Shown here one piece after another: positions 153-7,059 of a stretch of 7,059 bases of DNA. Within the stretch, counting starts at the first letter, position 1, and every line of letters starts with the position of its first letter. The notes under the pieces were generated by a model, which was given only the letters and a program-made list of their open reading frames with translations, searched no databases and was not told where the DNA came from. The DNA is from a candidate division WOR-3 bacterium (lineage in GTDB: Bacteria > Hydrothermota > UBA3072). The translations under genes and the position numbers were made by a program. The DNA lies in assembly GCA_039804165.1 (NCBI GenBank), contig JBDRZZ010000040.1:1-7059 (forward strand). The letters are read 5' to 3'.

Positions 153-1241
153 CTAAAATTTCGGTTTCTTGAAGATTAAAATGCAAGGTTCATTCTCAGC
201 AGTTGTTACATATAAATTCTCATTATCAACCGCAATGGAAGTTGCAAGAACTGGCAACTCAAAGGATAGCACATATGAAAGGTCCTCTTTCCTGAAAACA
301 TCCACAAACTTCCCCTCTCCAAGATTAATTTCCTTTCCTTTTCCTGTCCTGAAAGCAATTACTTTCTCCATTGTTATCTCTTCACCAGAAAATAAAGCAT
401 ATAAATATTTTCCGTCAGATGTGAGGGAAAGATAGGACTGAATGCATCTTTCTGGGTCTCCCGAGATAATTCCTCCTCTTTCTTTAACCTCAGCCTCTGG
501 GACTTCAATATTTCTTGGTTCAAACTCATATTCAAACACATCTCCTATTGGAGATGATTTAAAAATAAGAGATGAATAATAGTGGGCGAAGAAAAAATTC
601 CCTTCTTTGTCAAAATAAATAGCTCCTTGCTTTAAGAGAGGATTCTTACCCAACTTTATCATATTTTGGTTCTTTGTTAGAACTTTCTTGAACGGATAAT
701 ATTTTAAAACCGATAATACCTTACCATTTTCATCTATTTTGATTTTCTCTGCAAGACACTCCATTGAAAAGAGATTAACTGATACACCCTCATTATCACT
801 TATCATGTATAGAACGCCCATTTCAGCTTCTGGCTTTATCTCTTTTAAAAATTTTAAATCGTTTGAAAAGACAACAAGCTTCCTTTGCAACGGAAGAAAA
901 ATTAAAATCTTAGAACCTGTAGAGTTAATAACTGAAGGTGAACCCATAAGAACCTCTCCAGGACCCTGACCCCATGAGCCGAAACCTTTCAACTGGAGTG
1001 TCTTTTTATCAAGAGCATAAAAGGGATACTTTCCTTTTGAATCATAAACATAAAAATAACTGTCATCAATAGCGGAAATATTGTATCCCATTGCAGGAAG
1101 TCCGGGATAATTCAGAACGCCTTCACCTACTTTTTTGACCGAACAAAGTTCTATTTTTTTAACACTAACCTCTGAAGAAGCAACAACCAAGCTTCCTGAT
1201 AAAAGAAAGATTAAACTCGCAATAATAAATTTGTTTTTCAT
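153..1241 (-). CDS. Exported six-bladed beta-propeller protein (362 aa)
   Basis: Probable six-bladed beta-propeller of the exported NHL-like type; the ligand or partner is unknown. The frame is open 26 codons further upstream, but the start chosen is the ATG at 1241-1239: it has a GAGGAG site 7 nt upstream and puts a typical signal peptide (MKNKFIIASLIFLLSGSLVV, then ASS) at the N-terminus. No lipobox cysteine follows, so it is likely periplasmic or secreted. The hallmark is GSWGQGPGEV at residues 88-97, matching GPGEF motifs at similar places in the other two propellers here. Blade-like strands recur, such as SYFYVYDSKGKYPF near 61-74 and KYLYALFSGEE late in the protein. It is the most divergent of the three and lies apart from operon B, separated by about 330 bp and without its own thioredoxin partner in view. 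Family assignment is good; function is unknown. Confidence 0.85.
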   Translation of the reverse strand: MKNKFIIASLIFLLSGSLVVASSEVSVKKIELCSVKKVGEGVLNYPGLPAMGYNISAIDDSYFYVYDSKGKYPFYALDKKTLQLKGFGSWGQGPGEVLMGSPSVINSTGSKILIFLPLQRKLVVFSNDLKFLKEIKPEAEMGVLYMISDNEGVSVNLFSMECLAEKIKIDENGKVLSVLKYYPFKKVLTKNQNMIKLGKNPLLKQGAIYFDKEGNFFFAHYYSSLIFKSSPIGDVFEYEFEPRNIEVPEAEVKERGGIISGDPERCIQSYLSLTSDGKYLYALFSGEEITMEKVIAFRTGKGKEINLGEGKFVDVFRKEDLSYVLSFELPVLATSIAVDNENLYVTTAENEPCILIFKKPKF

Positions 1242-1568: not shown

Positions 1569-1757
1569 CTATGACTGGTATATTTTGCACCACCAATACT
1601 GTAACTCACATAGCCACCAGAGTTCTGGATTATTCATATTGCAAATTAAATACTCTAGTTCACAAGGAATGGGCAGATCCATAGACTGTAAGGAAACGAC
1701 TTGCACTGTTGTGATACACAGAATAATCAAAATCAAAGGAAGTAATCTTTTTGTCAT
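1569..1757 (-). CDS. Short secreted peptide with twin CX6C core (62 aa)
   Basis: Small exported peptide, last gene of operon B. The N-terminus MTKRLLPLILIILCITTVQV is a basic start followed by a hydrophobic core, with likely cleavage near residues 20-25. The mature part carries C32, C39, C50 and C57 as two CX6C pairs: CELEYLIC and CELQYWWC. Both have Glu right after the first Cys and Tyr four residues after it. A 10-residue linker joins them and the tail is KIYQS. The same spacing occurs in the 65- and 79-aa peptides upstream, which makes a chance ORF very unlikely. The start ATG overlaps the stop of the membrane-protein gene (ATGA), and GGAGGG lies 4 nt upstream, so translation is probably coupled. 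Role unknown; a disulfide-linked helical hairpin is my structural inference. Confidence 0.85.
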   Translation of the reverse strand: MTKRLLPLILIILCITTVQVVSLQSMDLPIPCELEYLICNMNNPELWWLCELQYWWCKIYQS

Positions 1758-2263
1758 ATATCCCTCCTTTTTATTGCTTTTTCAATAATCTCTTTTGCAT
1801 TAAGGGGTATTGGTATTTTCTTTTTATTTATTTTTGAAGATTCTTTCTCATATGCCCAATTAATTTCTAAATAAAGAAACCTGCCTTTTATTGTAAATTC
1901 CAGCTGTTTTATCATTTCCCAGAGTATTACTTTTCTCCCAATTGATATCCCCTTTGATCCTACAACTACTTGCCAATCTGGAGCAAAACTCAACACAACT
2001 AAAAAGAAAACAACTAAAGTGTAGTTTTTAAGATTTTGTGGGTTCTTGAAAATTAGAAAAAGGGTTAAGGCAATATAAAATATGATAATTATCCAATTTA
2101 ACCAGCTAAAAGGAAGATTCAAATGAAACTTTGAACACCATCTGTAATGAACCTTCCCGATAAGATTTTCTCTATTTTTCAATTCTTTATAATTTGAGAC
2201 AAATGACCAAATTCCAAAAATTGTCATTAGAAAAAACAGCAAAAATAATGCTGGTTCCTCCAT
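1754..2263 (-). CDS. Small membrane protein with three TM segments and a cytosolic C-terminal domain (169 aa)
   Basis: Integral inner-membrane protein of unknown function. Hydrophobic segments lie at about residues 5-23, 54-72 and 81-95. They are followed by a soluble domain (about 96-169) rich in beta strands: WQVVVGSKGISIGRKVILW, then IKQLEFTIKGRFLYLEI, then KIPIPLNAKEIIEKAI and a basic end KRRDI. The pattern 'G-I-x-I...I-x-W-x-x-I...L-x-I...' resembles small membrane-attached PH-like or DUF5673-type domains; this is a resemblance by eye, not a firm assignment. The gene starts immediately after the TAA of the thioredoxin-like gene, with GGAG 8 nt upstream, and its own stop overlaps the next peptide start. 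This places it inside operon B, where a membrane-anchoring or export-related role for the peptide system is possible but not shown. Confidence 0.8.
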   Translation of the reverse strand: MEEPALFLLFFLMTIFGIWSFVSNYKELKNRENLIGKVHYRWCSKFHLNLPFSWLNWIIIIFYIALTLFLIFKNPQNLKNYTLVVFFLVVLSFAPDWQVVVGSKGISIGRKVILWEMIKQLEFTIKGRFLYLEINWAYEKESSKINKKKIPIPLNAKEIIEKAIKRRDI

Positions 2264-2734
2264 TTATCTTTCTCCTTCAATTAGTTCCTTAATCTGCGTT
2301 TTTGATAAAGGAAATTTAAATTTTTTTATAATATCTGAAGAAACATCTATCACTATTACTGTATTCTCTAAATTCAACCCTTTAAAAATATTTGTTTTAT
2401 CAAGAATCAAAGGAAAGTTGATATTGTTAGCCTTGACAAAACCTCTTAACTGTTTTTCTATGATTTTTACTTTATTCTCATCTTCTAAATTATCAGAAAG
2501 AACAATCCCAGTCACTATACCTTCCTCATTTTTTTGTTTTTCTAATTTATTGAAAAGAGCAATAAAGGAATCAAGGCAGAAAGAACAAGAGATTGTAGAA
2601 TAGTCAACAAAAATAAGGATTAGTTTTAAGTTTTTAGTCGTTTTATTTATCGTCTGGTTGCCTTGCCCAAAAGAAAAAAACAAAACTAAAATAGTTATAC
2701 ATACCCACGAAAATTTTATTAACCTCACCTTCAT
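2264..2734 (-). CDS. Thioredoxin-fold protein with CSFC motif, exported or membrane-anchored (156 aa)
   Basis: Probable thiol/disulfide-type protein facing the periplasm. An N-terminal hydrophobic segment (about residues 6-24) acts as signal peptide or anchor. A beta strand LKLILIFVDY leads to the redox motif C50-S-F-C53 with the helix SFIALFNKLEKQ after it, the usual start of a thioredoxin fold. The distal part (FPLILDKTNIFKGL, then TVIVIDVSSDIIKKF) fits the later strands. The usual cis-proline before the fourth strand is not visible: the expected T-P position reads T125-V126, whereas the homologue at 4713-5264 has T129-P130. That may change substrate handling. The gene overlaps the propeller gene by ATGA and abuts the membrane-protein gene, so the three are probably coupled. 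The two cysteine pairs in each neighbouring peptide are obvious candidate substrates (inference). Confidence 0.8.
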   Translation of the reverse strand: MKVRLIKFSWVCITILVLFFSFGQGNQTINKTTKNLKLILIFVDYSTISCSFCLDSFIALFNKLEKQKNEEGIVTGIVLSDNLEDENKVKIIEKQLRGFVKANNINFPLILDKTNIFKGLNLENTVIVIDVSSDIIKKFKFPLSKTQIKELIEGER

Positions 2735-3705
2735 ATAAGCTTTGGATACTCTATACGATATTTTTTGAGAACTGTTCCCATACCAGCCCGAGAGTATAGA
2801 TTGTTCTCTTTGTCAATATGTATACAGTGAGTCGATTCTGGCAAAGTGACGGTGTGAAGTAAATTACCATTTTTGTCCAAGATGTAAATATCTCTACTCT
2901 TGTTTTTTGACCACGAGCCTCCAAGTATGTAAATGTTTCCAAAATTATCAAATTCAATATCTTTATAGACTACTTCCATAGGCAATTGAAAATGACCAGC
3001 TCTTGGCTTTTTCATTTTAACCTCTTTTCTCTCAAGAAGAGATTTGGTCCAAATCTTTTTCCCTTTGCTATCAAACTTTTCTATTTTATCCTGAAAGGTA
3101 TAAACAATATAAAAGTTATTTTGGTTATCGATTTCAAATTCCACCATACTTAGCGTGGACTGACTCATATCATCAAATTTTGAATACTCTACTTTATTCT
3201 TTAGAGTCCCTTTTTCATCATAGAAATATATACATTTAGAATTTTCATTGGGGTCAAAAGTAGAAATAGCTATCAAGCTCTTTGAGAGTACTTTAAAATC
3301 TATCACTGGAACCCTCAAGGGTATACTTCCTCTATAGTTAAGTTCTTCATCAAAGATCTGTATTCCAGGCTTATTTTGATCAGTCACATAAAGAAACCCA
3401 TTGAAATATTTAATCAATCTTGGAGCGAGGAATTCTCCTGGACCTTCTCCTCTTCTGCCTACCTTCTTTAATAGGGTTCCGTCTTTGTTAAATTTTTTTA
3501 TGGAATAATCCATTGAATCTGTGACATATATATTCAAGCTCAAATCTGTAGTCACACCAGCCCATTGATAGAGAATATCTTCATCTTCACTTCCAATAGA
3601 AAGAACTTCTTTTAAAATGACTTTTTTTGGCTTATCTTGCCCATATGTGATTGAAGCGAACAAAGAATAGAAAAATGTAAACAATAAAAATATGCATTTA
3701 CTCAT
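2731..3705 (-). CDS. Exported six-bladed beta-propeller protein (324 aa)
   Basis: Central gene of operon B. A signal peptide (MSKCIFLLFTFFYSLFASIT, then YGQDKPKK) is followed by a repeat protein of the six-bladed propeller type. The first blade shows NIYVTDSMDYSIKKFNKDG and then the signature GRRGEGPGEF at residues 83-92. Later blades repeat the strand-turn pattern: GFLYVTDQNKPGIQIFD, NNFYIVYTFQDKIEKFDSKG, GNIYILGGSWSKNKSRDIYI and NNLYSRAGMGT. The cysteine at position 4 is too close to the N-terminus to be a lipobox. Its start lies 8 bp inside the end of the 65-aa peptide gene (ATGAGTAA) with no strong ribosome binding site, so expression probably depends on translation of the peptide. This ties propeller and peptide stoichiometrically. 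Ligand unknown. Confidence 0.88.
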   Translation of the reverse strand: MSKCIFLLFTFFYSLFASITYGQDKPKKVILKEVLSIGSEDEDILYQWAGVTTDLSLNIYVTDSMDYSIKKFNKDGTLLKKVGRRGEGPGEFLAPRLIKYFNGFLYVTDQNKPGIQIFDEELNYRGSIPLRVPVIDFKVLSKSLIAISTFDPNENSKCIYFYDEKGTLKNKVEYSKFDDMSQSTLSMVEFEIDNQNNFYIVYTFQDKIEKFDSKGKKIWTKSLLERKEVKMKKPRAGHFQLPMEVVYKDIEFDNFGNIYILGGSWSKNKSRDIYILDKNGNLLHTVTLPESTHCIHIDKENNLYSRAGMGTVLKKYRIEYPKLI

Positions 3706-3895
3706 AATATTTTATACACCAAATATATCCAATATTGCAATACATCCAACCCCAAAAAGTGTCGCCATATCTTTCAACACAATCCCAATATCCCTCTTCA
3801 CAGGTCTTAGCATTTGCTACCTGCAAAAATGGGATTCCTAAAACCCCCATAAAAAAAGTTAGAATTAAAAAGAGAAATAATAATTTTTTTAACAT
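3698..3895 (-). CDS. Short secreted peptide with twin CX6C core (65 aa)
   Basis: Exported peptide immediately upstream of, and overlapping, the 324-aa propeller. The frame is open to 3976, but the start at 3895-3893 is preferred: GGGAGG lies 5 nt upstream and the product then begins with a signal peptide (MLKKLLFLFLILTFFMGVLG...) ending in ANA before K30. The mature peptide has C32, C39, C53 and C60, as CEEGYWDC and CNIGYIWC, separated by 13 residues rich in aromatics (FWGWMY), and ends IKYYE. The two CX6C units align with each other and with those of the 79- and 62-aa peptides. Four cysteines after cleavage allow two disulfides. No known family recognised; the gene context recalls NVEALA-type peptides of Bacteroides, but the core differs. 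Confidence 0.85.
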   Translation of the reverse strand: MLKKLLFLFLILTFFMGVLGIPFLQVANAKTCEEGYWDCVERYGDTFWGWMYCNIGYIWCIKYYE

Positions 3896-3900
3896 GTCAA

Positions 3901-3906
3901 CCTCCC
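3901..3906 (-). promoter_or_regulatory. Ribosome binding site deciding the start of the 65-aa peptide
   Basis: GGGAGG sits 5 nt before the ATG at 3895-3893. It argues against the upstream open frame (to 3976), which would overlap the preceding peptide gene and place 27 non-hydrophobic residues before the signal peptide. Confidence 0.7.
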
Positions 3907-3947
3907 AGTAAAAATATGGTATTTTAATTTTTTCCTGCAAACTCCTT

Positions 3948-4187
3948 TTACTCCATAAATTCAAGGCACCAAACATAACCTATCATACAGAATACTTCCC
4001 AAGCAAATGGTACTGCAGGATGAATAAACCCCGATAATAAAGCTTCAAATATACATCGCCAATAAGCAGTTTCGCAACTCGCATTCAATGAAGATGGGAA
4101 ACTAAATAGCATTAAAATAATACAAAGTAATACAAAAGCTGTTACTTTAACTAAGCCTTTTTTAAAAATGGTTTTTCGTTCAATCAT
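3948..4187 (-). CDS. Short secreted peptide with twin CX6C core (79 aa)
   Basis: First gene of operon B. The start ATG has a canonical AGGAGG 5 nt upstream. A basic N-terminus (MIERKTIFKKGLVK) precedes a hydrophobic core (VTAFVLLCIILMLFSF) and a likely signal peptidase I site after LNA at residue 36. The mature part has C38, C45, C67 and C74: CETAYWRC and CMIGYVWC, each with Tyr four residues after the first Cys, separated by a 21-residue linker with prolines (IHPAVP). It ends LEFME. The second unit is close to CNIGYIWC of the next peptide, 52 nt downstream, so the two are probably paralogues from tandem duplication. Possible roles include a secreted effector, signal, or structural partner of the propeller; none is demonstrated. 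Confidence 0.85.
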   Translation of the reverse strand: MIERKTIFKKGLVKVTAFVLLCIILMLFSFPSSLNASCETAYWRCIFEALLSGFIHPAVPFAWEVFCMIGYVWCLEFME

Positions 4188-4230: not shown

Positions 4231-4289
4231 AAAATTTATATCAAAGAGCATGCCAGAAATGAGATTGGCTTTTGGAGAGGGATTGGGGA
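4231..4289. repeat. Copy 1 of a ~59-bp conserved intergenic block
   Basis: This stretch matches 6711-6769 without gaps, with about eight mismatches by eye; 32 consecutive bases (4250-4281) are identical. It lies in the same place in both copies: after the palindromes and before a secreted-peptide gene. Homology stops abruptly on the side of the palindromes. Confidence 0.8.
4241..4256 (-). promoter_or_regulatory. Degenerate sigma54-like promoter candidate before operon B
   Basis: The minus strand reads CTGGCATGCTCTTTGA, with a GG and a G(A) at the -24/-12 spacing (10 nt between dinucleotides). The equivalent site at 6721-6736 reads CTGGCATAATTCTTGA. The -12 element has GA where GC is normal, so this is weak. 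TTGATA could instead serve as a -35 box, but no good -10 follows in both copies. Confidence 0.2.
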
Positions 4290-4306: not shown

Positions 4307-4326
4307 AATCGGCTTACAGGCCGATT
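4307..4326. repeat. 20-bp palindrome, type AATCGG, copy 1
   Basis: AATCGGCTTACAGGCCGATT has 7-bp perfect arms (AATCGGC/GCCGATT). It is the isolated member of a set of three at this locus, about 50 bp from the tandem pair. Confidence 0.7.
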
Positions 4327-4375: not shown

Positions 4376-4415
4376 AATCGGACTGTAATCCGATTAATCG
4401 GACTATGAGCCGATT
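4376..4415. repeat. Two abutting 20-bp palindromes, type AATCGG, copies 2 and 3
   Basis: AATCGGACTGTAATCCGATT (4376-4395) is followed with no gap by AATCGGACTATGAGCCGATT (4396-4415). The first has perfect 7-bp arms and the second perfect 6-bp outer arms. The second encodes the last codons (I-G-S-stop) of the small hypothetical gene. A paired hairpin at a gene end could act in RNA stability or termination, but no T-run follows. Confidence 0.7.
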
Positions 4416-4696
4416 TTATTTCTTCTGTTGTTCAGCTCCTTTATTGTTATGCCCTGTTTCCTCAAAAAATCATGAAACTTCTTATAATCCTTCTCCTCTA
4501 TCTTAAATATTGGAAGTACTCCTTTTAGAGAACCATTGCACTCTTTTAGTCCAAAGGAGATTATCTCCTCAAGCTGATACTTGTTTATCTCATGACTTAA
4601 ATACGCTTTCCTAATATCCCAGAAACTCATTCTCCCTTCCTTCATCTCTTTAAAAATCCTCTTTGAATGCCATTCCAGTTTCTCTTCTACTCCCAT
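4403..4696 (-). CDS. Small hypothetical protein, repeat-module ORF, complete copy (97 aa)
   Basis: Last gene of operon A, 16 nt after the thioredoxin-like stop; AAGG about 10 nt upstream is a modest ribosome binding site. The product is soluble and charged with mainly helical character: an N-terminal helix (EEKLEWHSKRIFKEMKEG), a middle part (FWDIRKAYLSHEI), then LEEIISFGLKECNGSLKGV and KIEEKDYKKFHDFLRKQGI. It has no signal peptide or TM segment, unlike its neighbours. I do not recognise the family. A second copy at the right edge matches 99 bp (4474-4572) exactly, then diverges: the C-terminal tail here ends NNRRNKIGS, with the last residues encoded by a palindrome. Such identity including silent sites points to recent duplication or gene conversion. 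A nucleic-acid-binding role linked to the palindromes is conceivable but unsupported. Confidence 0.7.
   Translation of the reverse strand: MGVEEKLEWHSKRIFKEMKEGRMSFWDIRKAYLSHEINKYQLEEIISFGLKECNGSLKGVLPIFKIEEKDYKKFHDFLRKQGITIKELNNRRNKIGS
4474..4572. repeat. 99-bp identical repeat inside the small hypothetical gene (copy 1)
   Basis: By eye this is identical base for base to 6961-7059, the right edge of the window, so the true repeat may be longer. It encodes about 32 residues from EEIISFG to DYKKF. The match stops sharply at 4473/6960. Confidence 0.85.
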
Positions 4697-4712: not shown

Positions 4713-5264
4713 CTATTTTCTTTTTGAGTAATAATGACTTGTAAGGATTTCTTTTAATCTAGCTTCTCTAAGAAGTTCAAGTGCTTCAAAATAGAAACTT
4801 TCCTGTAATTTCTTGTCTGAAAAACTTGGTGACATATAAAGAATTTTACCACTTCTATCCATTATTATCTTAAATGGCGTAATTGAAATATTAAATCTGT
4901 TTTTTATTTTCCCGTTTCTATCGTGGCCAACAGGGAAAGCTATTTCTACTTTTTCCTTGAGTGCTCTAATATCTTCTTCTTGTGGAATTAGACCTAATAT
5001 AAATATCTCCTCCCTCTTTAAATCCTTGAAAAGCTTATTCCAGTAATATATTTCTTCTATGCAATTTCTACATTCGTTATTCGAGAAATAAATAATAAAG
5101 GTTAAAACACTCTCTCTTGATGGAATTGAAACTCTTTCTTTCAAACCTTTTATGAATATTTTTTCAAAAACTGAGTTTCTATTGCAATCCTTCACTTTTG
5201 AAACTAAAAAAACATTTATTATTACCAGCAAAATTGATAATGCTATCCACCAACCTTTTTTCAA
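4713..5264 (-). CDS. Membrane-anchored thioredoxin-like protein with CRNC motif (183 aa)
   Basis: Probable TlpA/redoxin-like thiol-disulfide protein. An N-terminal anchor (GWWIALSILLVIINVFLV, residues 4-21) puts the domain in the periplasm. Strand VLTFIIYFSNNE leads to the redox pair C65-R-N-C68, followed by the helix IEEIYYWNKLFKDL. Strand IFILGLIP and the segment VEIAFPVGHD come next. Then the cis-proline context NISITPFKIIMDRSGKIL (P130) and a C-terminal helix complete a thioredoxin fold. The start is TTG at 5264-5262, overlapping the propeller stop as TTGA with AAAGG about 9 nt upstream; there is no in-frame ATG nearby. The rare start and overlap suggest coupled, low-level expression. Likely job: redox handling of cysteines in exported partners such as the adjacent peptides (inference). 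Confidence 0.85.
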   Translation of the reverse strand: MKKGWWIALSILLVIINVFLVSKVKDCNRNSVFEKIFIKGLKERVSIPSRESVLTFIIYFSNNECRNCIEEIYYWNKLFKDLKREEIFILGLIPQEEDIRALKEKVEIAFPVGHDRNGKIKNRFNISITPFKIIMDRSGKILYMSPSFSDKKLQESFYFEALELLREARLKEILTSHYYSKRK

Positions 5265-6322
5265 GGTAATACCTTTGTAACTTTGTATTTAGAAAACCTA
5301 TATTTGGGTTCTTTTTCATCATCAAGAGTTTCTAAGATGTAAATTTTATCCTCATGATTACTGTCAATCATAAAAAAATGCTGGTAGGAAGATTTCCCGA
5401 TTCCTTCAATTTTCTTTCCATTCTCTAATAAGTTTCCATCGCAGTCATAACATCGCAAAAAATACTCCCACTTATTTAGCTTATTATTGAAGTTAGTAAT
5501 TATCACTCCTACAAGATCTTTTAGAGCAAATATCCCCGAGACCCAGCTGAAAGAACGACGCCATCTCTCATCCGCTTCCATCATCTCCGATTGGCTATTT
5601 CCTTTGTATATTAAGTCAAAATCTTTAGTTTTTTTACATTGGTAAAAATAAGAAGGGTTTTCTCCAAATTTTCTTACAAGTTCTCCAGATTTATTAAATT
5701 TGAAGACCTTAACCTCCCTTTCCTTTACAAAATAAATCTCTTCATTATTAGAAATATCCAGAAACGACAAGGAATCAGTAACCCTGTTCCACATATCATC
5801 TCTTGGGTATTGGAAAGGAATTAGTGCCTTTATCACTTTTCCTGAAAAATCAATAATAATACCAATAAACTCTTTACCATTTTTTTCTACAAAATAACCA
5901 TTTGAAATAATCCTGTCTTTACTTATTACAAAGGTATCATTTGGACTGAGAAGATAAAAGATCCTTTTGATCTCTCTGAATGTTCTATCAAATATTATAT
6001 ATTTCAATGCATGAACATCTTGAACACATATCCATTTGTCATTAACATCAATTCTAAATGGATACATAAATTCCCCTGGTCCTCCTCCCTTGCTTCCGAA
6101 AGTTTTAAGAAGTTTTCCATCCTTGTTGTAAATTTTAATATTAGAAGAATCTCCATCAACAACATAAATATTCTCTTTTTCGTCTACTGCTATATCTCGT
6201 GCATTAGTAATAAACTCACTTTTTTGCTCTAAGTAAAACTGAGAAAGAAGCTCTATTCTTATCTTTCCGTTCAAAAAAGAAGCTCCAAAAAGAAATAGCC
6301 ATAAAAAACATTTCCTTTTCAT
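5261..6322 (-). CDS. Exported six-bladed beta-propeller protein (353 aa)
   Basis: Central gene of operon A and paralogue of the 324-aa propeller. The ATG at 6322-6320 has GAGAGG about 5 nt upstream. An N-terminal hydrophobic stretch (KCFLWLFLFGASFLNG, residues 4-19) acts as signal peptide; C5 is too early for a lipobox. Blade one reads ARDIAVDEKENIYVVDGDSSNIKIYNKDGKLLKTFG, running into the signature GSKGGGPGEF at residues 76-85. Later repeats include NDKWICVQDVHALKYIIFD, NNEEIYFVKEREVKVFKFN and EDKIYILETLDDEKEPKYRF. Organisation matches operon B: peptide gene before it, thioredoxin-like gene overlapping its end. A G-rich tract in the gap before it may affect its expression. Ligand and partner unknown. 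Confidence 0.88.
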   Translation of the reverse strand: MKRKCFLWLFLFGASFLNGKIRIELLSQFYLEQKSEFITNARDIAVDEKENIYVVDGDSSNIKIYNKDGKLLKTFGSKGGGPGEFMYPFRIDVNDKWICVQDVHALKYIIFDRTFREIKRIFYLLSPNDTFVISKDRIISNGYFVEKNGKEFIGIIIDFSGKVIKALIPFQYPRDDMWNRVTDSLSFLDISNNEEIYFVKEREVKVFKFNKSGELVRKFGENPSYFYQCKKTKDFDLIYKGNSQSEMMEADERWRRSFSWVSGIFALKDLVGVIITNFNNKLNKWEYFLRCYDCDGNLLENGKKIEGIGKSSYQHFFMIDSNHEDKIYILETLDDEKEPKYRFSKYKVTKVLP

Positions 6323-6399: not shown

Positions 6400-6588
6400 T
6401 TAATCAGGATAAACGACAGAACAATTTAGAGGATAGACCAACCAACATGTCTCAATAGGCCAACTTGGGTGACGAATTCCAAATACGGCTTTAGCTTCTA
6501 CCCTTTGAGGAAGGAAAAAATAAATTAACCCCCATAAAGCAATAACCAAAAGGGCACTAAAAAGTGTTTTTTCAATTATTCTTCTCAT
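6400..6588 (-). CDS. Short secreted peptide with a single C-x3-Y-x3-C unit (62 aa)
   Basis: First solid gene of operon A, with AGGAGG 8 nt before the ATG. The N-terminus MRRIIEKTLFSALLVIALWG continues through a hydrophobic core to LPQRVEA at about residue 32, a plausible signal peptidase site before KAVFG. The mature part has only two cysteines, C48 and C56, as CWLVYPLNC, with Tyr four residues after the first Cys as in the other three peptides but 7 rather than 6 residues between cysteines. The tail SVVYPD keeps the C-terminal aromatic. It therefore looks like a half-size relative of the twin-CX6C peptides. RVEAKA recalls the NVEALA motif of Bacteroides peptides that also neighbour propellers; this may be coincidence. 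Position before the propeller matches operon B. Confidence 0.75.
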   Translation of the reverse strand: MRRIIEKTLFSALLVIALWGLIYFFLPQRVEAKAVFGIRHPSWPIETCWLVYPLNCSVVYPD

Positions 6589-6710: not shown

Positions 6711-6769
6711 AAAATTCCTATCAAGAATTATGCCAGAAATGAGATTGGCTTTTGGAGAGGGTTTGGAGA
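6711..6769. repeat. Copy 2 of the ~59-bp conserved intergenic block
   Basis: Matches 4231-4289 without gaps, with 6730-6761 identical to 4250-4281. The candidate sigma54-like site at 6721-6736 falls inside it. Beyond 6769 the two loci differ except for the palindrome layout. Confidence 0.8.
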
Positions 6770-6868: not shown

Positions 6869-7059
6869 TTATTTTTTCTGACTGTAGTCAGAACGATTCT
6901 GACTCTGGTCAGAATTTTTGAGATTCTGCAATGTTATACCTTGTGCATGAAGAAAATTCAGAAACTTCTTATAATCCTTCTCCTCTATCTTAAATATTGG
7001 AAGTACTCCTTTTAGAGAACCATTGCACTCTTTTAGTCCAAAGGAGATTATCTCCTCAA
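6869..7059 (-). CDS. Small hypothetical protein, second copy, 3' part only (partial)
   Basis: Partial gene entering from the right edge; 62 complete sense codons and a TAA stop (6871-6869) are visible. Residues EEIISFG to DYKKF are identical to the complete copy at 4403-4696, and the 99 bp encoding them are identical at DNA level. After that the copies diverge: here LNFLHAQGITLQNLKN, then a tail SDQSQNRSDYSQKK encoded almost wholly by two palindromes (6875-6915). The tail is 7 residues longer than that of the other copy. The N-terminus and upstream partner genes lie outside the window; by analogy a propeller/thioredoxin cassette may precede it. No family recognised. Confidence 0.65.
   Translation of the reverse strand, partial: EEIISFGLKECNGSLKGVLPIFKIEEKDYKKFLNFLHAQGITLQNLKNSDQSQNRSDYSQKK
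6875..6915. repeat. Two near-abutting 20-bp palindromes, type TTCTGAC, copies 2 and 3
   Basis: TTTCTGACTGTAGTCAGAAC (6875-6894) and ATTCTGACTCTGGTCAGAAT (6896-6915) are separated by one base. Arms are perfect over 7 and 8 bp. On the minus strand they are read in frame as the repeated tail SDQSQN/SDYSQK of the partial gene. Layout matches 4376-4415. Confidence 0.75.
6961..7059. repeat. 99-bp identical repeat inside the small hypothetical gene (copy 2)
   Basis: Identical by eye to 4474-4572 and cut by the window edge, so the full extent is unknown. The two copies are in direct orientation about 2.5 kb apart and flank operon A, so recombination between them would delete or duplicate that cassette. 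Confidence 0.85.

Follow-up and report, generated by a model that had tools for sequence, protein, structure and literature searches.

The 7,059-nucleotide stretch of a candidate division WOR-3 bacterium analyzed here (the window, which is the entire contig C40) raises the question of what is made by three short open reading frames (ORFs) of one operon, operon B, and whether they represent a family of secreted mini-proteins built on two CX6C units, i.e., cysteine pairs with six residues between them. An earlier note, drawn from the window alone, had described three secreted-type ORFs of 62-79 amino acids (aa) with four mature cysteines, and we found all three on the minus strand. Each begins with a hydrophobic, signal-peptide-like N terminus, followed by four mature cysteines in the arrangement C-x6-C ... 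C-x6-C; the linkers of 10, 13, and 21 residues and the five-residue Tyr/Phe tails are likewise present (LEFME in peptide 1, IKYYE in peptide 2, KIYQS in peptide 3). The DNA pattern for C-x3-Y-x2-C occurs seven times in the window against 0.17 expected, and six of these seven occurrences are units of the three peptides. We show below that these are three members of a previously unnamed family and, as a correction to the first reading, that their genes are part of a larger operon, itself conserved and equipped with a promoter of its own.

Four Cysteines and Their Spacing Define the Family

The trail to homologues ran through the propeller gene lying between peptides 2 and 3, which led to three contigs (L101-L103) whose propellers are 47-50% identical to that of the window and occupy the equivalent position. 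In L101 and L103, two peptides stand directly upstream of the propeller in the same order as in the window; L102 is cut off where the upstream peptides would lie. A peptide profile built from 7, then 11 peptides was extended first within the L103 genome and then phylum-wide, and revealed family members outside the filed phylum, in a set of 396 genomes from a second one, of which about 25 were positive (E < ~1e-4). This second phylum is probably Acidobacteriota (Aminicenantia among them), because the records are labeled Acidobacteriota and Aminicenantes (a third label reads Clostridiales). The exact twin C-x3-Y-x2-C DNA pattern, searched in 60 relatives, stayed at about the control level outside the window, because the wrong phylum was searched and the pattern was too strict.

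We collected 57 peptides, 54 of which keep the twin CX6C, with linkers ranging from 10 to 38. Spacings between 1 and 12 other than six fit none of the 57, shuffled mature sequences reach twin CX6C in 0.3% of cases, and none of 3,415 other small ORFs from the same loci has it. Homologues in other genomes, on which the earlier note had staked its claim beforehand, are thus present with their cysteine positions kept, and the contrast it had drawn between fixed cysteine spacing and variable linkers and other residues holds across the family. Its signature C-x3-Y-x2-C stands in part: near-invariance is limited to the four cysteines and the six-residue spacing, whereas the tyrosine is not invariant, its position being taken mostly by L, W, F, H, or Y in unit 1 and by Y, L, or F in unit 2. 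In a second subfamily (CWDNWERC...CDIALGKC), the linker measures exactly 20 residues. Among window-type tandem pairs, the longer linker belongs to the first peptide in 13 of 13 loci, which are related and do not amount to 13 independent events. Pairs of close homologues show ratios of nonsynonymous to synonymous substitution rates (dN/dS) of 0.05-0.71, i.e., purifying selection, as expected of the selected scaffold that had been proposed; in these pairs the peptide is less constrained (higher dN/dS) than its propeller and thioredoxin neighbors. Judged by this sequence comparison, the peptides are protein-coding and under constraint.

The Peptides Keep Company with a Propeller and a Thioredoxin-Like Protein

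The profile favors cysteines, and gene neighborhood played no part in the search; the neighborhood therefore provides an independent test of the family. Of 35 loci, 31 have a peptide or tandem pair directly upstream of a propeller gene (27 of 30 when the seed loci are set aside), and the thioredoxin-like gene is also found in 29 of these 31 propeller loci, the exceptions being L169 and L179, the latter cut by a contig end. A CxxC motif is present in all 32 thioredoxin-like proteins from the homologous loci, both window operons, and L102. The window propeller scores 32.5 bits against PF17170, above the gathering cut-off of 22.9, and the thioredoxin-like homologue of L182 matches PF00578 (E 1.6e-11), while the window protein itself stays under the cut-off. 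In many single-peptide loci, the thioredoxin-like gene is followed by genes for a membrane protein (a putative permease) and an ATP-binding cassette (ABC) ATPase.

A Sigma-54 Element Precedes the Peptide Genes in Most Loci

In a scan run with shuffled controls, 26 of 36 loci had a sigma-54 element 39-60 bp (about 42) upstream of the point where translation of the single peptide, or of the first of a pair, starts; the full consensus TGGCACG-N4-TTGC(A/T) is present in 11. RpoN was present in 15 of 15 genomes tested, such that the family combines the two marks of a sigma-54 regulon, a -24/-12 element and RpoN in the genome. Both window sites (TGGCATGCTCTTTGAT and TGGCATAATTCTTGAT) are weaker at -12. 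Each window operon is preceded by three copies of its own palindrome; for AATCGG-N8-CCGATT, upstream of operon B, 0.01 copies would be expected. To judge from their sequence, the palindromes are candidate enhancer sites that an activator may bind. The 97 aa protein encoded before operon B matches the C-terminal part of an activator encoded before the homologous operon of L103 (39% over 70 aa, E 4e-12), and the L103 activator in turn matches Sigma54_activat (E 1.9e-60).

A Predicted Helical Hairpin

The helical hairpin suggested by the earlier note was obtained when AlphaFold was run on the mature peptides with seven aligned sequences (window and L101/L103). Both window peptides tested gave one, with predicted helices at 2-17 and 23-41 in peptide 1 (predicted local distance difference test score, pLDDT, 92.4) and at 3-14 and 18-34 in peptide 2 (pLDDT 96.4). 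In both models, C2/C3 and C1/C4 are nearly symmetric about the turn, in register only; this predicted register suggests C1-C4/C2-C3 pairing and would fit two nested disulfides. Unit 1 displays helical hydrophobic periodicity (53 sequences). The mean net charge is about -0.3, near neutral, which argues against a cationic membrane-active peptide, and we rejected a cationic antimicrobial peptide on this ground.

Comparison with Known Families

As the earlier note had supposed, the signature leads to no known family: Pfam and NCBIfam gave no convincing match for any of 56 members (scattered single-member matches were at chance level), the peptide profile found no match among the sequences of solved structures (PDB), and Foldseek returned insignificant matches only from the PDB (E 7 or more). 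VIA-align gave Z values no higher than 4.7, for generic helical hairpins, a level that speaks neither for nor against a known fold relative. In the literature searched, bacterial peptides with twin CX6C did not turn up, nor did any work on NVEALA or PF17170 systems. In Bacteroidetes, NVEALA peptides (PF14055) adjoin six-bladed propellers. They share with the family a small exported peptide beside a PF17170-type propeller but differ in cysteine layout, and the NVEALA profile matched none of the 56 members (E up to 0.1).

The plant alpha-hairpinins, with twin CX3C, are like the window peptides small secreted four-cysteine helix-loop-helix proteins, and their disulfides link Cys1-Cys4 and Cys2-Cys3 (PMC7191063), a connectivity that is only predicted for the bacterial peptides. 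The antiparallel helix-loop-helix recurs in the AlphaFold models of two window peptides; however, the bacterial family has CX6C instead of CX3C (0 of 57 peptides fit the latter), no profile match, and a place in an operon beside propeller and thioredoxin-like genes. Mitochondrial twin CX9C (CHCH) and twin CX3C (small Tim) proteins also consist of two disulfide-stapled helices with a cysteine pair each and have a dedicated redox partner, Mia40/CHCHD4 (PMC12114033). Unlike these, the family has a spacing of six (nine in 0 of 57 peptides; a CHCH Pfam match in 0 of 56 members), a Sec signal peptide, and a thioredoxin fold with CxxC rather than a helical oxidase with CPC. Alpha-hairpinins and the twin CX9C/CX3C proteins thus share an idea with the family, but neither spacing nor gene context.

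What the Cassette May Do

We favor, with a confidence that leans modestly toward it, the reading that the peptides are Sec-exported, disulfide-stapled helical hairpins that are helped by the thioredoxin-like partner, act with the propeller, and are switched by sigma-54, because export, stapling, and propeller action together use all conserved parts. The mini-proteins would be exported via Sec and would then fold as antiparallel helical hairpins with two nested disulfides (C1-C4, C2-C3), while the co-encoded thioredoxin-like CxxC protein would oxidize or proof-read the cysteines outside the cytoplasm. The mature hairpins, often a long-linker and a short-linker one as a pair, would act with the adjacent secreted six-bladed propeller, most likely as its small subunit or ligand, and the whole cassette would be activated through sigma-54 and an activator of the enhancer-binding type. 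Of the elements of this reading, cysteine conservation, gene order, the CxxC motif, and the promoter are evident at the level of sequence; the fold and cysteine register are predicted; and we infer that the disulfides form, that the thioredoxin-like protein makes them, and that the peptides physically associate with the propeller. The end product may be a propeller subunit, a ligand or signal, or a bacteriocin-like effector.

Several points weigh against this reading. Four loci (L161, L162, L176, and L183) have a twin CX6C peptide with neither propeller nor thioredoxin-like gene, the second peptide of L101 lacks one cysteine, and the window promoter is imperfect at -12, with TTGAT for TTGC. 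The CxxC protein could be a reductase instead of an oxidase. The AlphaFold alignments hold only seven sequences, and the proposed disulfide pairing comes from the register of the models.

More tentatively, and as a reading less likely than not to hold, we propose a new bacterial class of exported peptides, in which twin CX6C hairpins would have a dedicated periplasmic disulfide-forming partner, in parallel to Mia40 and twin CX9C. Under the control of sigma-54, the peptides would be exchanged like cassettes next to a propeller that stays constant and serves to display or deliver them.

It is unlikely, in our estimate, that the peptides are bacteriocin-like effectors against competitors, of the two-peptide kind in some loci, with the ABC transporter of single-peptide loci serving self-protection. 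Small exported peptides with predicted disulfides, tandem pairs with a longer-linkered first peptide (13 of 13 window-type loci), the ABC ATPase and putative permease that follow the thioredoxin-like gene, several cassettes per genome with different peptides, and a peptide dN/dS above that of the neighbors would all agree with such a role. Class IIb two-peptide bacteriocins such as gallocin A, which has intramolecular disulfides, also have tandem small peptide genes (PMC10100652), and two adjacent peptide genes occur in window-type loci, many other loci being single-peptide. However, the family differs from class IIb in its Sec signal peptide, propeller and thioredoxin-like partners, and sigma-54 promoter; effectors would not need so strict a partnership, the near-neutral charge is not the profile of a cationic membrane-active peptide, and window-type loci lack both a transporter and any evident immunity gene.

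We give a still smaller chance to the reading that the peptides are secreted as signals, or serve as surface components, and are expressed as part of a sigma-54 response. The strong sigma-54 promoters, the activator genes adjoining cassettes in L058, L059, and L103, and the palindromic candidate activator sites before both window operons point this way, but neither a receptor kinase nor another obvious sensor is linked to the cassettes, and the activators were seen without a sensory domain recognized in Pfam.

In methylamine dehydrogenase, the light chain is a small disulfide-rich subunit that goes with a propeller and with MauD and MauE, MauD being a thioredoxin-like maturation factor. The parts list of propeller, small cysteine protein, and thioredoxin-like protein matches, so that the peptide could be a light-chain-style subunit of a propeller enzyme with the thioredoxin-like protein in the role of MauD, and in the L089 cassette a Cys-rich peptide and a propeller are joined by a frame that, by eye only, looks like MauE/DoxX. 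We consider this improbable to a high degree, as the propeller is a six-bladed PF17170 type and not a seven-bladed quinoprotein, the peptides have only four cysteines and neither a conserved Trp pair nor tryptophan tryptophylquinone (TTQ) residues, and no MauE-like gene was recognized in the window. Finally, chance ORFs or a misassembled contig, which a short, probably misbinned contig with a repeat at its end might bring to mind, are refuted by the comparative data, since many independent genomes keep the family with purifying selection, cysteine spacing, promoter, and gene order, leaving this explanation a negligible chance.

Neighboring Operon and Related Cassettes

The features of the window are listed in Table 1. 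Operon A, a neighboring paralogous operon, has a two-cysteine peptide in a matching propeller and thioredoxin-like layout, which suggests that peptides are swapped between cassettes. The gene for the 97 aa DNA-binding-like protein is repeated at the contig end (6920-7059); this repeat probably broke the assembly, and further cassettes may follow.

Table 1. Features of the 7,059-nucleotide window
Feature	Position	Strand	Remarks
Peptide 1	3948..4187	minus	79 aa; signal peptide and twin CX6C, linker 21; mature part ~3948-4079
Peptide 2	3698..3895	minus	65 aa from its ATG; signal peptide and twin CX6C, linker 13; mature part ~3698-3808
Peptide 3	1569..1757	minus	62 aa; signal peptide and twin CX6C, linker 10; 3' end of operon
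Exported six-bladed beta-propeller protein (PF17170-like)	2731..3705	minus	324 aa; E 6.7e-8, over cut-off
Thioredoxin-fold (AhpC-TSA/TlpA-like) protein	2264..2734	minus	156 aa; CSFC motif; sub-threshold Pfam match
Small membrane protein	1754..2263	minus	169 aa; weak DUF5673 match below cut-off; also in three other loci
Further propeller gene	153..1241	minus	Downstream of peptide 3; Pfam match just under cut-off
Sigma-54-type promoter-like site TGGCATGCTCTTTGAT (operon B)	4240..4255	minus	68 bp before peptide 1 start
Palindrome AATCGG-N8-CCGATT	4307..4326		Candidate activator site
Two more AATCGG-N8-CCGATT copies	4376-4395 and 4396-4415		
97 aa protein before operon B	4403..4696	minus	Like C-terminal DNA-binding part of a sigma-54 activator
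Operon A thioredoxin-fold protein	4713..5264	minus	CRNC
Operon A propeller	5261..6322	minus	
Operon A peptide	6400..6588	minus	62 aa; signal peptide, two Cys (CX7C); different peptide type
Sigma-54-like site TGGCATAATTCTTGAT	6720..6735	minus	Before operon A
Three palindromes TTCTGACTnnnGTCAGAA	6787-6804, 6876-6893, 6897-6914		Upstream of operon A

Further propeller cassettes were seen elsewhere. L059 (C49, 147-4482) encodes a sigma-54 activator (Pfam) and a 70 aa exported peptide with CxCx6Cx2C, followed by a propeller, a thioredoxin-like protein, and an ABC ATPase, a similar cassette with another peptide type. In L058 (C39, 3138-6046, minus), a propeller cassette is accompanied by a radical S-adenosylmethionine (SAM)/SPASM-like protein, a second Cys-rich protein, an ABC ATPase, and a 63 aa Cys-containing ORF (MANLKLTYLESQ...), and resembles a modified-peptide cluster (functions by eye). 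In L057 (C38, 1594-8122, plus), an ORF for a hydrophobic peptide of 55 aa lies with genes for two radical-SAM-like proteins, one PqqD-like protein, a propeller, and an ABC transporter; this is likely another peptide-modification cluster, with functions again judged by eye. In the phylum under which the genome is filed, L089 (G003:C50, 1785-4978) holds a propeller, an exported peptide of 90 aa that is rich in Cys, and frames that look like TlpA and MauE/DoxX, a comparable set of parts with another peptide; the propeller neighbors in this phylum (L087-L100) include no twin CX6C peptides. The flanks of L161 and L162 have in common genes resembling hslV/hslU.

Origin of the Contig

Contigs C37, C38, C39, C40, and C49 of the genome are probably misbinned. 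For C40, this is probable because propeller and peptide-profile searches found both families absent from the other 146 genomes searched in the filed phylum, except for a weak peptide-profile match in G142 (E 0.006) with an internal stop; alternatively, C40 may have arrived by horizontal transfer. C38 carries a second methionyl-tRNA formyltransferase, whose best matches come from Acidobacteriota-type genomes, with scores of up to 309 bits; in the filed phylum they do not exceed 229. The other copy of the genome is on C6. The composition of C37-C40 and C49 leans weakly toward misbinning and alone does not settle the binning.

Significance

Plants, venoms, and mitochondria are the known sources of helical hairpins with twin cysteines. 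A conserved family with its own spacing, a thiol enzyme, a propeller partner, and a sigma-54 switch would extend this scaffold to bacteria, in a largely uncultivated host group. The peptides seem to belong to a genuine secreted system that has not yet been studied and that would be open to testing with synthetic peptides.

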